DNA of 64,000 bases, taken from contig NZ_UNRE01000003.1 of NCBI RefSeq assembly GCF_900537085.1, forward strand, positions 387,808 through 451,807, in the 5' to 3' direction. Below, piece by piece: positions 32,297 to 39,021 of the stretch. Source of the DNA: Agarivorans sp. Alg241-V36. Lineage in GTDB: Bacteria; Pseudomonadota; Gammaproteobacteria; Enterobacterales; Celerinatantimonadaceae. Below the pieces are notes generated by a model that saw only the letters and a list, made by a program, of their open reading frames with translations, had not been told where the DNA came from and searched no databases. Each line of letters starts with the position of its first letter. The first letter of the stretch is position 1. Both the position numbers and the translations under genes were made by a program.

Positions 32297-34447
32297 ATGA
32301 GATTTCAAATGCTTGCGAAATTAAATGCCGTGTTACTCAATCAGCAGGAAATTGCTGAAATCAGCCAGCAGCTTAATAGTGATAGCTTGATGGGTTTAAG
32401 TTTAGACAAAATGATTAGCGATACTCAAGCTTATATGGCTAAGCCCATTGAAGTGCCTGGTCATGGTGAAGCGGGTGGCTACGAGCACAACCGTCACAAG
32501 CAGAACTATCAATATATTAACCAAGCTGGCCGCCTGTTCTTAATCACTGGCGACGAGCAATACGCGCAATACACTGCAGATATATTAAGTGAGTATGCCG
32601 ATAAGTACTTGGGCTTTGGTTTCCATATTCAGCGCAACACTAACCCACCGGGTCGCCTGTTCCACCAAATCCTCAATGAGCATGTTTGGCTGTTGTACGC
32701 CAGCTTAGGCTATAGCTGCATCAAACACTGGTTAAGCGAAGAACAAGTGAAGCATATCGAAGGTCAATTATTCCAACCTATGCTAGATATGTTTACCGAC
32801 AAATATGGCTTCGACTTTGACCGGATCCACAACCATGGTTTGTGGGCGGTAGCAGCCGTAGGTATTTGTGGCCTTGCCATAGGCAAACCAGAATATGTAG
32901 ACATGTCGGTACATGGGATAAAAGGCGATGACGTAACTGGTGGCTTCTTAGCCCAAATTAGCCAATTGTTCGCGCCTTCAGGCTACTACATGGAAGGACC
33001 TTACTACCATCGCTATGCGATTCGCCCTTTGTGTTTGTTTGCTGAAGTATTACATCGCCATCGCCCAGAGCTAGACATTTTTAATTACAAAGGCCAAGTA
33101 ATTGGTAAAACCATTAAAGCTTTGTTAGCGACCGCCTACCCTAACGGCGTATTCCCTGCATTAAACGATGCGTCATTAAGCATGGATATCAAAGATCAGG
33201 GCGTAGTAGTAGCAGTAAGCTTGGCTTACAAGCATTACGGCCACGACGATAAACTGCTTGGCATGGCTAAAATACAGCAGCAAGTTTGGTTACATGGATG
33301 TGGTAGCGCACTATCAAAGGCTTATCAACAATCAACTACCACTGCCCTTCCTCACTGGCCAAGCGTTGAGTTAAACGAAGGTCCTAAAGGTGACCGCGGT
33401 GCCCAAGGCTTTGTGCGCATGCAAAGCAAAGATGGTGACGTTAGCCAACTGGTGATGAACTATGGCCAACACGGCATGGGCCATGGTCACTTCGACACCT
33501 TAGGCATTAGCTTCTTCAACCGAGGACAAGAGGTACTAAAAGAGTACGGCTTTGGTCGCTGGGTAAATATAGAACCTAAGTTTGGTGGTCGCTATTTAGA
33601 TGAAAACAAGTCTTACGCACGCCAAACCGTTGCTCATAACGCGGTGGCAGTAGACCAATCTTGTCAAAACAACTTTGATGTAGCACTGGCTGATAGCAAA
33701 CACGGTATCCCCCACTTCTTTGAAGACCAAAATCCAAACCTGCAAGCGGTAAGTGCCTTTGCCGATAATTTTTACCCGGGTGTAGACCAACAGCGTAGCT
33801 TGGTGTTGATTAATGATGACGCATTAGACGCACCACTATTATTGGATGTATTCCGCTTAAGCAGTGACACCGAACATAGTTACGATTACGCCCTGCAATA
33901 CCAAGGGCAAATTGTACGGTGCACCAGTAACTATCAAATGCACCAAGAGCTCGCGCCAATGGGTAACAACTTTGGTTACCAACATTTGTGGAACGAAGCA
34001 CAAGGCAAAGCCTCTGAGAACAACTTAGTAAGTTGGCTACAAGGCAATAGTTACTATTCTTGGATTAGCGCCAGTGAAACAAGCGACGAGCTATTCTTCA
34101 CTCGCGTTGGCGCCAATGACCCAGAGTTTAACTTGCGCAGTGAAACCAGCTTTATCTTACGTCGCCAAGCAAAATCAACGGTGTTTGCTAACGTATTAGA
34201 AACCCATGGTTACTTTAATGAAGCCATCGAAGCCAGTACCAATGCACGTGGCAAAGTAAGCCAAGTAAGCGTGCTAGTAAGCAACGACATCGGCAGCGTA
34301 GTGCAAATAATCGGTGACGGCATCAACTTCACTGTAATGATTAGTAACCAACGCAATGTAAGTGCTGATACCCAGCACAGTATAGAATTTAATCAACAAA
34401 CTTATTGCTGGCAGGGATCTCTGGCTTTAGAAAAGAACCGAGGTTAA
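32297..34447 (+). CDS. PL17 oligoalginate lyase (copy 1)
   Basis: 716 residues without a signal peptide, so cytoplasmic. Exolytic beta-elimination of alginate oligomers to unsaturated monomer. The N-terminal alpha-toroid includes the PL17 H-N-H-G-L-W-A-V segment (N179, H180) and E-G-P-Y-Y-H-R-Y with the catalytic tyrosine (~236). A heparinase II/III-like beta-sandwich follows (G-H-G-H-F-D, W-V-N-I-E-P-K-F-G-G-R-Y, T-V-A-H-N). The start could be ATG 32297 or the in-frame ATG 32309; no clear ribosome site decides. It is divergent from the symporter operon and 2 nt before a paralog. Confidence 0.93.
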   Translation: MRFQMLAKLNAVLLNQQEIAEISQQLNSDSLMGLSLDKMISDTQAYMAKPIEVPGHGEAGGYEHNRHKQNYQYINQAGRLFLITGDEQYAQYTADILSEYADKYLGFGFHIQRNTNPPGRLFHQILNEHVWLLYASLGYSCIKHWLSEEQVKHIEGQLFQPMLDMFTDKYGFDFDRIHNHGLWAVAAVGICGLAIGKPEYVDMSVHGIKGDDVTGGFLAQISQLFAPSGYYMEGPYYHRYAIRPLCLFAEVLHRHRPELDIFNYKGQVIGKTIKALLATAYPNGVFPALNDASLSMDIKDQGVVVAVSLAYKHYGHDDKLLGMAKIQQQVWLHGCGSALSKAYQQSTTTALPHWPSVELNEGPKGDRGAQGFVRMQSKDGDVSQLVMNYGQHGMGHGHFDTLGISFFNRGQEVLKEYGFGRWVNIEPKFGGRYLDENKSYARQTVAHNAVAVDQSCQNNFDVALADSKHGIPHFFEDQNPNLQAVSAFADNFYPGVDQQRSLVLINDDALDAPLLLDVFRLSSDTEHSYDYALQYQGQIVRCTSNYQMHQELAPMGNNFGYQHLWNEAQGKASENNLVSWLQGNSYYSWISASETSDELFFTRVGANDPEFNLRSETSFILRRQAKSTVFANVLETHGYFNEAIEASTNARGKVSQVSVLVSNDIGSVVQIIGDGINFTVMISNQRNVSADTQHSIEFNQQTYCWQGSLALEKNRG

Positions 34448-34449
34448 TC

Positions 34450-36597
34450 ATGACTTACCAACCATTATTGATAAGCTTTGAAGAAGCAAAAGAACTGGCC
34501 AAGCACTTAAATACTGATTCTCTAATGGGTCAGTCTATCGCTGCCGAAGTGGCAGCGCTTGAAGCTTACATGCCTTTAGGCATTGAGATCCCCGGCCACG
34601 GTGAAGCCGGCGGTTACGAGCATAATCGCCACAAGCAAAACTACATCCACTTGGACTTAGCCGGCCGCTTATACCTCATTACTGAAGACCAACGCTACCT
34701 AGATTACGCACGTAGCATGCTGCTTGAATACGCCAAGGTGTACCCTACTTTAGAGCTAAACACTAGCCGAGACACCAACCCACCGGGGCGCTTATTCCAC
34801 CAAACATTGAATGAAAATATGTGGATGCTGTACGCCTCGTGTGCTTATTCTTGTATTCGTCATAAACTGGCAGAAGACGAACAGCAACTAATCGAAAACG
34901 ATTTATTCAAATTAATGATTGAGCTGTTTGTTGATGTTTACGCCCACGACTTTGATATTGTGCACAACCACGGTTTGTGGGCGGTAGCAGGTGTTGGTAT
35001 TTGTGGTTACGCCATTCAAGACCAAGCCAGTGTAGACAAAGCCTTGTATGGCCTTAAAGGTGATAGCGTGAGCGGCGGCTTTATTGCCCAGCTCACTCAG
35101 CTATTCTCGCCAGACGGTTACTACATGGAAGGCCCTTACTATCATCGCTTTTCCTTGCGTCCAATCTTCTTGTTTGCCGAAGCCATTGAGCGTCGCCAAC
35201 CAGAGATTGGTATTTACCAACTCAAAGAACAAGTGATTAAAACCACTACTTATGCGGTAATGGCCACAGCCTTTCCAAATGGTGTTTTACCCGCACTTAA
35301 TGATTCATCGAAATCCATGGACATTAATGACGAAGGTATCTTAATTGCCACTAGCATGTGCTTTAGCCGTTACCTCCGGGACGCAAACTTAGTAGCCATG
35401 GCTAAACACCAAGCTAAAGTTTGGGTACATGGCTCTGGAGCCAGCTTGTCGGATGCTAGCGAAAACGCAGCAAGCATTGGTGGCTTTAACTGGGGCAGCT
35501 TAGTATTAACAGATGGCGCCGAGGGCGACCGCGGTGGCGTAGCGATATTACGTCACCGAGATGCTCAGCAAGATGACAGCATGGCGCTGTTATGGTTTGG
35601 CCAACATGGCAGTGACCACAAGCTACATTCAGCATTAGACCACGGCCACTTTGATGGCTTGCACTTCAACCTATTCAATCGTGGCCAAGAAGTATTGCAT
35701 GATTACGGCTTCGGTCGCTGGGTAAATATAGAGCCTAAGTTTGGTGGTCGCTATATTCCAGAAAACAAAAGCTACGCTAAGCAAACCATTGCTCACAATA
35801 CAGTGGTAGTGGATTACCAAAGCCAAAACCAAGGTAATACCGCCACTGCTGAAGAAAAATGGGGCGAACACCACTTCTTTGTAAGTGGTGACAACAAGCT
35901 ACAAGCAATGAGTGCATTTGTACGTAACTACTACCCAGGCGTAGACCAACAGCGCAGCGTAATCATGTTTGAAGTAGAGGGTTTTGCTAAGCCATTAGTA
36001 CTGGATTTGTTCCGCCTAGTAAGTGAGCAAGAGCATAACTATGACTACACTATTCACTATTCTGGCCAGTTTATTCGCAGCGATTTTAACTACGAATGCA
36101 ATGCTCGTCTTAAACCACTGGGCGAAAGCCATGGTTACCAGCACCTGTGGCACCAAGCAACGGCTGATGTAGATGGCTCAAGCTTAATTACTTGGTTACA
36201 AGGTAATAGCTATTACTCGATGGTGAGCTCTGCGGTAGCAAACAGCCAAGTGATTATGGCGCGCACCGGTGCTAACGATCCAGATTTCAACTTACGTAGC
36301 GAACCGGTTATATTGCTACGTCAGCAAGCTAAAGATCACTTGTTTGCCAACGTGTTCGAAACTCATGGCTACTTTAATGAAGCCATTGAAGCAAGTACCG
36401 AAGCACGCGGCCAAGTGGTGTCAGTTGAAGTATTGGCTCACAACAAAGTGGCGTCAGCGGTGGCAATTCATTTGGTGTCTGGCAAACAGATTACCGTGTG
36501 TATTTCTAACCAGGCAAACGTGAAACCAGAAACTCAGCATCAATTAGAAGTGAATGGAGAAATCCTGCGCTGGAGTGGCGCTGTTCACATAGCTTAA
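34450..36597 (+). CDS. PL17 oligoalginate lyase (copy 2)
   Basis: 715 residues, same architecture and motifs as the preceding gene (H-N-H-G-L-W-A-V with N173/H174; E-G-P-Y-Y-H-R-F; G-H-F-D; W-V-N-I-E-P-K-F-G-G-R-Y), also without signal peptide. ATG 34450 is chosen because it lies 2 nt after the stop of copy 1 with AGG upstream; the frame extends to 34405 inside copy 1 but that is unlikely to be used. A clear tandem duplication that has diverged, possibly toward different linkages (M, G or MG) or chain ends. Confidence 0.93.
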   Translation: MTYQPLLISFEEAKELAKHLNTDSLMGQSIAAEVAALEAYMPLGIEIPGHGEAGGYEHNRHKQNYIHLDLAGRLYLITEDQRYLDYARSMLLEYAKVYPTLELNTSRDTNPPGRLFHQTLNENMWMLYASCAYSCIRHKLAEDEQQLIENDLFKLMIELFVDVYAHDFDIVHNHGLWAVAGVGICGYAIQDQASVDKALYGLKGDSVSGGFIAQLTQLFSPDGYYMEGPYYHRFSLRPIFLFAEAIERRQPEIGIYQLKEQVIKTTTYAVMATAFPNGVLPALNDSSKSMDINDEGILIATSMCFSRYLRDANLVAMAKHQAKVWVHGSGASLSDASENAASIGGFNWGSLVLTDGAEGDRGGVAILRHRDAQQDDSMALLWFGQHGSDHKLHSALDHGHFDGLHFNLFNRGQEVLHDYGFGRWVNIEPKFGGRYIPENKSYAKQTIAHNTVVVDYQSQNQGNTATAEEKWGEHHFFVSGDNKLQAMSAFVRNYYPGVDQQRSVIMFEVEGFAKPLVLDLFRLVSEQEHNYDYTIHYSGQFIRSDFNYECNARLKPLGESHGYQHLWHQATADVDGSSLITWLQGNSYYSMVSSAVANSQVIMARTGANDPDFNLRSEPVILLRQQAKDHLFANVFETHGYFNEAIEASTEARGQVVSVEVLAHNKVASAVAIHLVSGKQITVCISNQANVKPETQHQLEVNGEILRWSGAVHIA

Positions 36598-36883: not shown

Positions 36884-37222
36884 ATGACGATAGTATTAAC
36901 GCTTTCTCTACTCACATTAATAATGTTGGCGCCGATTAAATTGGGTACTCAGGTACTAAAAATTGAGCGCTCAGGAATAGATGTTTGTTTTGTTGCTGTA
37001 ATTGCTGCCATAGCCGCCAGTGTTTTTACCGAGTTGGTCATTGGCGAAGGTTTTTTCCCAACTTTGGTTGCAATAGTCATAACCAGCATTCTGTTTTCTT
37101 TAGTATTTAGAACAACCGCCGTTGCAGGCTTTGTTCTCGCTCTGTTATCAACGGCGATTCAATTTGCTTTTACCTTGGCTATTGTCGCTTTGGGCGTAAT
37201 AGTCGCTTACAGCCTTTCCTAA
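36884..37222 (+). CDS. Small membrane protein, unknown
   Basis: 112 residues with about four predicted membrane helices that occupy most of the sequence (TIVLTLSLLTLIML; VCFVAVIAAIAASVF; LVAIVITSILFSLVF; FVLALLSTAIQFAF...). No family recognised. It has its own terminator downstream and lies between the PL17 genes and the double OMPLA; no functional link to either is evident. Confidence 0.6.
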   Translation: MTIVLTLSLLTLIMLAPIKLGTQVLKIERSGIDVCFVAVIAAIAASVFTELVIGEGFFPTLVAIVITSILFSLVFRTTAVAGFVLALLSTAIQFAFTLAIVALGVIVAYSLS

Positions 37223-37241
37223 GCTGAACCATATATACCTT

Positions 37242-37267
37242 AAAGGACGCTTTTGCGTCCTTTTTTC
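37242..37267 (+). terminator. Terminator after the small membrane protein
   Basis: AAAGGACGC-tttt-GCGTCCTTT followed by TTT. A strong plus-strand terminator. Confidence 0.9.
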
Positions 37268-37401: not shown

Positions 37402-39021
37402 ATGAAGAAAACAGTACTTAGTATTTTGCTGCTAACGCTATCAAGTACGAGCTTGGCAGAGCAAGACAGTGGACCTAGATTAGTTGCCTATCGTGATACC
37501 TATATCCTACTAGGAAAATACAACCCTAACCCACCCAGTTTAGGTGATTACTCTTCGGTATTAGCCACTAAAGAAGGCGAAAACGGTGGAGGTATCGATA
37601 ACCTAGAAACCGAATTTCAGATAAGTGGCAAGCTCATCGTAGCTGAAAGCCTGTTAAGTAAAAGAGACTACTTTAGCATTGCCTATACTCAGCAAAGTTT
37701 TTGGCAAGTATACAACAAACCTTTCTCATCCCCTTTTCGGGATACCAATTACGAACCAGAACTCATTTACACTTGGCGGCCAGACCAATTTAGCATCGAC
37801 AAAAACCGCTGGCTATTGCGCGCAGCAAGCCTTGGTTTTAGCCACCAAGCTAATGGCTCTTACGGTGAGTTTGATCGTTCATGGGAGAGAATTTACGCCC
37901 AGTTTGATACCTCCTACAACGACTGGTTAATCACCTTTAAACCTTGGATCCCGGTAGGACCCGAAGTGAACAACGGCGGTGATTTTACTGATTATTATGG
38001 CTATGGTGAACTCACCCTTGGCTACCTGTTTGGTGATGACCAATGTAACCACCGCGTCACAGCAATGGGTCGCAATAATCTGCAATCAGACAATAAAGGC
38101 GCTGTAGATTTACGTTTTTCCTATTGCATTAGCCCCGCATTTTCTCTCTACGCCAAATATTTTAATGGCTATGGTGAGTCAATGCTTGACTACAACATCC
38201 ACAACCAGTCTTTCGGCCTAGGTGTTGCGCTTAATCGAATTGGCGACCGACGAGAAATGATGTCAACAAGCAGCCAATGGACCTTTGCTGGTATGAGCAT
38301 GTTTAGAGATAGCTATATTCTGCCTTTCAAATACAACCCCTCGCCTGCCATTCCCGATTTAGCTGGCGGCGTTCCCGGTCAACAACCGGAAAAAATGGAA
38401 GTGGAGTTTCAGTTTAGTTTTCGTCTTACACTGCCCTTCACCCTATTTACCGACAGCGATAATTTGAGCTTTGCTTACACCCAGCAAACCTTCTGGCAAC
38501 CTTACGAGCGCTCTGGTGACGCTATTCGTGAAACCAATTATGAGCCTGAATTTTTCTATCAGTGGAATAGCAGTGCAGAGCAGCGTTCAGCTTGGTCACC
38601 AGAATGGATGCGTTTTGGTTTAGTGCATGAGTCAAACGGACAAACACAAATTCGTTCGCGCTCGTGGAACCGCATTTATGGCGAATTTGGCTTTGACGCT
38701 AAGCCCGTTAGCGTAGCGATAAAACCGTGGTACCGCATCAAAGAAGATGAATCGGAAGACGATAATCCCAATATGGAAGATTACTATGGCTACGGTGAGT
38801 TAACAGCTAGTTGGCAGGTAAATGACCGACACCGCTTAAGCTTTTTGGGACGAAATAACTTTAAAAAAGACAATAAAGGCGCTTTAGATTTACGCTGGTC
38901 TTACGGCATAACTCAAGAATTAGCCTTATACCTTAAATACTTCAACGGTTATGGTGAATCCTTAATTGATTACAACAAACATAATCAAAGTTTGGGTATT
39001 GGTTTTGCCATCAATAACTAG
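37402..39021 (+). CDS. Fused tandem outer-membrane phospholipase A (two OMPLA units, first one catalytically dead)
   Basis: 539 residues, nearly twice the length of PldA/OMPLA (~289). After a signal peptide (to about A19) there are two full OMPLA (PF02253) units, roughly 22-280 and 293-539, each ending in Y-F-N-G-Y-G-E-S-x-x-D-Y-N. OMPLA cleaves phospholipids at the outer membrane and is active as a Ca2+-dependent homodimer with a His-Ser-Asn site. In unit 2 the triad is intact: H409-E-S411-N and S-W-N423-R. In unit 1 the same positions read H148-Q-A150-N and S-W-E162-R, so the nucleophile Ser is Ala and the Asn is Glu; the Arg and Ser that help bind Ca2+ are also replaced (Ser, Asp). Unit 1 should be inactive and may act as a built-in dimer partner. 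Confidence 0.9.
   Translation: MKKTVLSILLLTLSSTSLAEQDSGPRLVAYRDTYILLGKYNPNPPSLGDYSSVLATKEGENGGGIDNLETEFQISGKLIVAESLLSKRDYFSIAYTQQSFWQVYNKPFSSPFRDTNYEPELIYTWRPDQFSIDKNRWLLRAASLGFSHQANGSYGEFDRSWERIYAQFDTSYNDWLITFKPWIPVGPEVNNGGDFTDYYGYGELTLGYLFGDDQCNHRVTAMGRNNLQSDNKGAVDLRFSYCISPAFSLYAKYFNGYGESMLDYNIHNQSFGLGVALNRIGDRREMMSTSSQWTFAGMSMFRDSYILPFKYNPSPAIPDLAGGVPGQQPEKMEVEFQFSFRLTLPFTLFTDSDNLSFAYTQQTFWQPYERSGDAIRETNYEPEFFYQWNSSAEQRSAWSPEWMRFGLVHESNGQTQIRSRSWNRIYGEFGFDAKPVSVAIKPWYRIKEDESEDDNPNMEDYYGYGELTASWQVNDRHRLSFLGRNNFKKDNKGALDLRWSYGITQELALYLKYFNGYGESLIDYNKHNQSLGIGFAINN

Follow-up and report, generated by a model that had tools for sequence, protein, structure and literature searches.

The window, a 64,000-nucleotide stretch of Agarivorans DNA, contains on its forward strand an open frame encoding 539 amino acids plus a stop (37402..39021) whose product matches the Pfam family PF02253 (PLA1) twice, with a whole-protein E value of 3.8e-149. 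In genome-level scoring, where the cut-off is 27 bits, the two matches reached 229.5 and 276 bits, each covering approximately the whole 257-position model, confirming the original prediction that two complete outer-membrane phospholipase A (OMPLA) units lie in one chain. The NCBIfam equivalog model for phospholipase A (NF008031) gave 328.5 bits over two stretches, below its 369-bit threshold, and by this model the fused protein is a relative and not an equivalog; with both units above the Pfam cut-off it belongs to the OMPLA family, from whose architecture it departs. Matches in the PDB were to OMPLA structures only. Reading along the forward strand, residues 1-19 (MKKTVLSILLLTLSSTSLA / EQ...; 37402..37458) form a signal peptide predicted by inspection, and unit 1 (residues 27-278; 37480..38235) and unit 2 (residues 295-539; 38284..39018), each a complete PF02253 unit by profile match and alignment, are joined by a linker of residues 279-294 (RIGDRREMMSTSSQWT; 38236..38283) in which NRIGD is kept in 7/7 Agarivorans. 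Within this one protein the two units are approximately 46% identical.

A terminator-like hairpin followed by a T-run lies upstream of the fused gene on the same strand (37242..37263); the number of such sites is not above chance, and the stem of this one is strong. Together with a convergent DUF4336 gene downstream, the hairpin suggests that the fused gene is probably transcribed on its own. Neighbouring genes, here and in several relatives, encode two PL17-like alginate lyases, an FCD regulator, an SDR and a KdgM porin. Flanks were compared in five relatives (L107, an outgroup, being excluded from the count), two of which (G009 and G164) lack these neighbours or have them elsewhere; a link to the alginate-lyase cluster was therefore rejected, and the function of the fused OMPLA is not tied to alginate use. 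The two lyase genes themselves (window 32297-36597) are adjacent, encode heparinase II/III-like proteins (PF05426 and PF07940) approximately 51% identical to each other, and lie side by side in several Agarivorans genomes. Several Agarivorans genomes also encode, adjacent to the OMPLA gene, a 112-aa membrane-like protein with no Pfam match (window 36884-37222), for which no nearby copy was seen in G009 or G164. A variable spot follows the OMPLA gene in the Agarivorans sp. Toyoura001 record (L033; 7620-9130): this stretch is extended by approximately 1.5 kb, and identity drops to about 61% for the DUF4336 and hexapeptide-transferase neighbours, against more than 90% for the next genes. Since the genome studied here also encodes MlaA, misplaced phospholipid is probably cleared by two routes, of which OMPLA would be one.

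Active-site and loop residues of the two units

Alignment of both units to E. coli OMPLA located the His142-Ser144-Asn156 triad once per chain, in unit 2 of 7/7 Agarivorans proteins, and found it absent from unit 1. The active site of unit 2 reads H409-E-S411-N-G-Q414 ... S419 ... N423 (38626..38670), with H409, S411 and N423 at E. coli positions 142, 144 and 156 and Q414 and S419 at positions 147 and 152; the triad named in the original prediction is intact and kept in all seven species. Unit 2 also keeps the E. coli DDNP motif (183-186) as D453-D454-N455-P456 (38758..38769). In place of the E. coli sequence S106-S-P-F-R it carries S371-G-D-A-I-R376 (38512..38529), a loop one residue shorter from which Ser106, Pro108 and Phe109 are gone.

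The corresponding region of unit 1 reads H148-Q-A150 ... D158 ... E162 (37843..37887; E. coli 142, 144, 152 and 156), with S153 at position 147. Ala150 in place of the serine, Glu162 in place of the asparagine, and the lack of the Arg and Ser that aid Ca2+ binding had all been proposed beforehand, and each was seen in the alignment. Across the seven Agarivorans proteins position 144 of unit 1 is Ala (7/7) and position 152 is Asp (7/7), whilst position 156 is Glu, Asp or Asn; His142 and Ser144 are each present in 102/102 single-unit OMPLAs. Unit 1 is thus without a nucleophile and is predicted to be catalytically dead. This part of the original prediction stands through Ala150; Glu162 and Asp158 are insufficient on their own, because single-unit OMPLA paralogues with an intact Ser144 can carry an acidic residue (Asp or Glu) at 156 or a Glu at 152 (L112-L119, L131), which points to Ala150 as the killing change. 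In addition, N190-N191-G192-G193 (37969..37980) replaces the DDNP motif in unit 1, and the S109-S110-P111-F112 loop (37726..37737; E. coli 106-109) is intact.

Other positions bear on how the two units might fit together. Position 73 (Leu in E. coli), which we take to be a dimer-interface residue, is Gly in unit 1 (7/7) and Phe in unit 2 (7/7), with Gly in 0/59 single units, and a knob-into-hole fit between the two is conceivable. Gln94, presumably within the E. coli OMPLA dimer interface, is Gln in both units in 7/7 proteins. Unit 1 has a Cys at position 230 in 7/7 Agarivorans.

Reciprocal loss and the Ca2+ site

Losses were scanned at 49 positions identical in at least 93% of 59 single-unit OMPLAs. 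Positions 144, 152, 156, 178, 183, 185, 186 and 250 (the last only mildly) were lost in unit 1 only, comprising the unit's nucleophile and DDNP loop together with its own Ca2+/triad neighbours. Lost in unit 2 only were positions 106, 108, 109 and 143 (the last again mildly), and three of these four are the three invariant sites of the S-S-P-F loop; a random draw of four from the 49 sites would give this result approximately twice in 10,000 (46/211876), a figure to be read with the loop having been picked post hoc. Ser106, present in 102/102 single units, is Ser in unit 1 in 7/7 proteins and Gly or Val in unit 2 in 6/7, a Ser being aligned at this position in unit 2 of species L040. Pro108 and Phe109 are kept in unit 1 (7/7) and lost from unit 2 (7/7). 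This reciprocal loss, in which unit 2 is without the Ser106-x-Pro108-Phe109 loop that unit 1 retains, had been overlooked in the original prediction.

The active-site Ca2+ of the E. coli enzyme reportedly spans both monomers via Ser106, Arg147 and Ser152, and we take the ligands to be the main-chain oxygen of Ser106 from one monomer and Arg147 O and Ser152 OG from the other. If this split is right, a homodimer contains two sites, each composed of the triad and residues 147/152 of one subunit and the 106 loop of the other. In the fused protein, provided that its units pair, the aligned residues for exactly one such site are present, namely Ser109 of unit 1 with Gln414, Ser419 and the triad of unit 2, and the pieces of the second site, the unit 1 triad and the unit 2 106 loop, are both absent. 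The residues that remain are those that an obligate asymmetric pair with one site would be predicted to keep. Ser106 acts through its main-chain oxygen, and the altered loop of unit 2 could still bind Ca2+, with Ser371 perhaps shifted into the place of Ser106. Given the main-chain ligand, Ser371 and the aligned Ser in L040, the loop change points strongly to relaxed constraint and does not prove that binding is lost.

Distribution, selection and origin

The double gene was found as one frame of 545-550 codons in 7/7 Agarivorans genomes, this one included, at 75-100% identity, the Toyoura001 record being a named entry with the double frame. No PF02253 match other than the double gene was present in any of the seven genomes, and five other genomes of the GTDB family encoded one single-unit OMPLA (G176) or none. 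Overlapping surveys (1,202 genomes counted) were made at three ranks, with 395 genomes from the order, 369 from the class and 398 from the phylum; they are samples from larger groups and cover part of their species. The search for other chains with two PF02253 units, suggested with the original prediction, found none outside Agarivorans among these approximately 1,200 genomes. Order-survey genomes with at least two PF02253 matches had separate genes or weak fragments and no doubles, and frames above 500 aa in the class and phylum surveys, checked singly, contained one PF02253 domain each. Plasmid and phage records held single OMPLA units only, and no OMPLA relatives were found in the viral contigs scanned.

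Several other arrangements were observed during these surveys. In one genome (G103) a truncated OMPLA (C124:94791-95312) lies approximately 2.4 kb before a full one (97693-98487) on the same strand, and in another (G027) an OMPLA is split into two frames (C19:43749-44526); both possibly reflect ongoing duplication or decay. Second OMPLA genes with an intact His-x-Ser carry Glu at 152 (L112, L114, L119) or Asp/Glu at 156 together with a degraded DDNP loop (L113, L115-L118, L131), and these variants possibly represent subfamilies that have another triad acid or use Ca2+ differently. At 390-1091 (H20) of MT839379.1, a 4.3-kb record from human faeces labelled 'Bacteriophage sp.' that may be host DNA mislabelled as phage, there is a distant OMPLA-like stretch (26% identity, E 3e-11).

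Both units of the fused protein are under strong purifying selection, which constrains the dead unit no less than the live one. For the closest pair of species (L034 and L035) dN/dS was approximately 0.02 for unit 1 (0.007/0.34) and 0.03 for unit 2 (0.014/0.53); in farther pairs dS was mostly saturated, with dN from approximately 0.02 to 0.24 in both units. Maximum-likelihood analysis of 52 rows placed the unit 1 and unit 2 sequences in separate clades (support 100/100 and 100/98, respectively) that were sisters (100/98), the next branch being L041, the single OMPLA of G176 from the same GTDB family (95/82). The two units also have derived residues in common relative to single units, Glu68 and Lys240 for example. 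The stem branch of unit 1 was longer than that of unit 2 (1.23 vs 0.63), and mean identity to single OMPLAs was 41% for unit 1 and 43% for unit 2. Because the two units are sisters in the tree, an internal duplication of the gene in the ancestor of the genus is likely, followed by faster change in unit 1, with long branches and later gene conversion as possible complications for this reading.

A proposed covalent asymmetric dimer and its alternatives

On the residue patterns and conservation described above, the product of the gene is likely an asymmetric OMPLA dimer, covalently linked and with a single composite active site. With almost the same confidence, the product can be regarded as a fused enzyme pair whose opposite active-site halves have been reciprocally lost, that is, as an obligate intramolecular enzyme/pseudoenzyme heterodimer for which dimerisation would no longer be the switch. 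A pseudo-heterodimer with a single site was the core of the original prediction, and this is still the best reading, strengthened by the reciprocal loss; that the partners belong to the same chain we infer from topology. The 12-stranded OMPLA barrel has both termini in the periplasm and its first and last strands adjacent, so linking two barrels head to tail is topologically simple. Active dimers of E. coli OMPLA have reportedly been obtained by cross-linking near residue 26, and since this residue maps to approximately S291, at the end of the linker, a periplasmic linker of 16 residues should be enough for pairing in cis. An AlphaFold2 model of the full protein, built from a two-row alignment with P0002 of L033 as the added row, had a pLDDT of 27 and is uninterpretable at such depth.

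According to this scheme, the signal peptide would route the chain to the periplasm and BAM would fold two 12-stranded barrels, which would pair via the normal OMPLA interface across a periplasmic linker of approximately 16 residues. His409, Ser411 and Asn423 of unit 2 would carry out the chemistry, whilst unit 2, through Gln414 O and Ser419, and unit 1, through Ser109 O, would together coordinate the oxyanion-site Ca2+; the S109-F112 loop of unit 1 is the proposed donor of a Ca2+ ligand to the active site of unit 2. The second site of the ancestral homodimer would have been abandoned on both sides of the interface. Ca2+ and outer-leaflet substrate would still be needed and the meeting of two monomers would not, control presumably being exerted by Ca2+, outer-leaflet substrate and membrane stress instead of monomer-dimer exchange. 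The original prediction that a permanently paired protein would be switched on differently is overstated: work on E. coli OmpLA treats Ca2+-stabilised dimers as switching between an active and an inactive state and models activity on that basis (PMC10153742), and a fused dimer is not thereby always on.

Reciprocal loss would suit any pairing of a unit 1 with a unit 2, in cis or in trans, and pairing across chains would give a reciprocal four-barrel assembly with two composite sites per two chains. We regard this as unlikely, since the linker of approximately 16 residues permits pairing in cis, which local concentration would favour, and the E. coli cross-link near residue 26 would place the termini of paired barrels close together. 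It is distinctly less probable that unit 2 forms an ordinary homodimer with the unit 2 of another chain, unit 1 being an anchor, a folding aid or a leftover. Unit 2 does retain the full triad and its cis Ca2+ ligands and is slightly nearer to the single OMPLAs in both identity and stem length, but the Ser106-Pro108-Phe109 loop that a symmetric unit 2 dimer would need is gone, which argues against such a dimer, and unit 1 is not decaying, being under purifying selection as strong as that on unit 2.

A new role for unit 1, such as lipid sensor, pore or binding platform, with catalysis by unit 2 only part of the job, would accommodate the conserved Gly73 and Cys230 (each 7/7) and the altered DDNP loop. 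However, unit 1 has changed mainly around its own active site whilst keeping its partner-facing loop, there is no sign of an added domain in the sequence, and the neighbours vary between species so that context gives no hint; we rate this role slightly lower still. An assembly artefact, named at the outset as a possible source of the long frame, is ruled out by the occurrence of the same double frame in seven Agarivorans genomes and in the Toyoura001 record. Taken together with a recent, decaying tandem duplication, this explanation has a negligible probability given 7/7 genomes down to 75% identity, low dN against saturated dS, and units approximately 46% identical.

OMPLA is a textbook outer-membrane enzyme controlled by dimerisation, and whether its real switch is monomer-dimer exchange, Ca2+ or membrane stress is debated. 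A fused OMPLA without monomer-dimer exchange, present throughout a genus as its sole OMPLA, would test whether such exchange is needed for safe control. From the reciprocal losses one could also read, independently and from evolution, whether a given residue serves the site in cis or in trans, and the folding of tandem barrels by BAM could be studied on a two-barrel chain such as this, a natural substrate for the question.

The covalent asymmetric dimer proposed here resembles E. coli OMPLA/PldA (PF02253; PDB 1qd5/1qd6 and 1fw2/1fw3) in fold family, unit 2 triad and barrel motifs, identity over aligned columns being 37% for unit 1 and 36% for unit 2. A covalent dimer of E. coli subunits has reportedly been made in the laboratory. 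E. coli OMPLA itself has one unit per chain and is regulated by reversible dimerisation (PMC5043575), whereas in 7/7 Agarivorans two diverged units are fused and one triad is left. The engineered covalent E. coli dimer studied by Kingma and Egmond 2002 (cited in PMC7617971) likewise joins two OMPLA barrels covalently, but, as far as that citation describes it, differs from the natural peptide fusion with its diverged units and reciprocal losses. Our literature search found no report of a natural fused OMPLA with enzyme and pseudo-enzyme halves, and to this extent the original claim that no such fusion had been described holds for OMPLA; for outer-membrane proteins at large, a multi-barrel class has been reported (Solan et al. 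2021, cited in PMC8592465). The fused protein, with two full OMPLA units by homology, would resemble these in having more than one beta-barrel per chain, and differs in its pseudo-enzyme/enzyme split, which is absent from the citation of that survey, where multi-barrel families are predicted generally. Among the single-unit OMPLAs of the tree, L041 branches closest to both Agarivorans units; unlike the fused protein it consists of one unit with all catalytic and Ca2+ residues, and it lies in a different gene neighbourhood.
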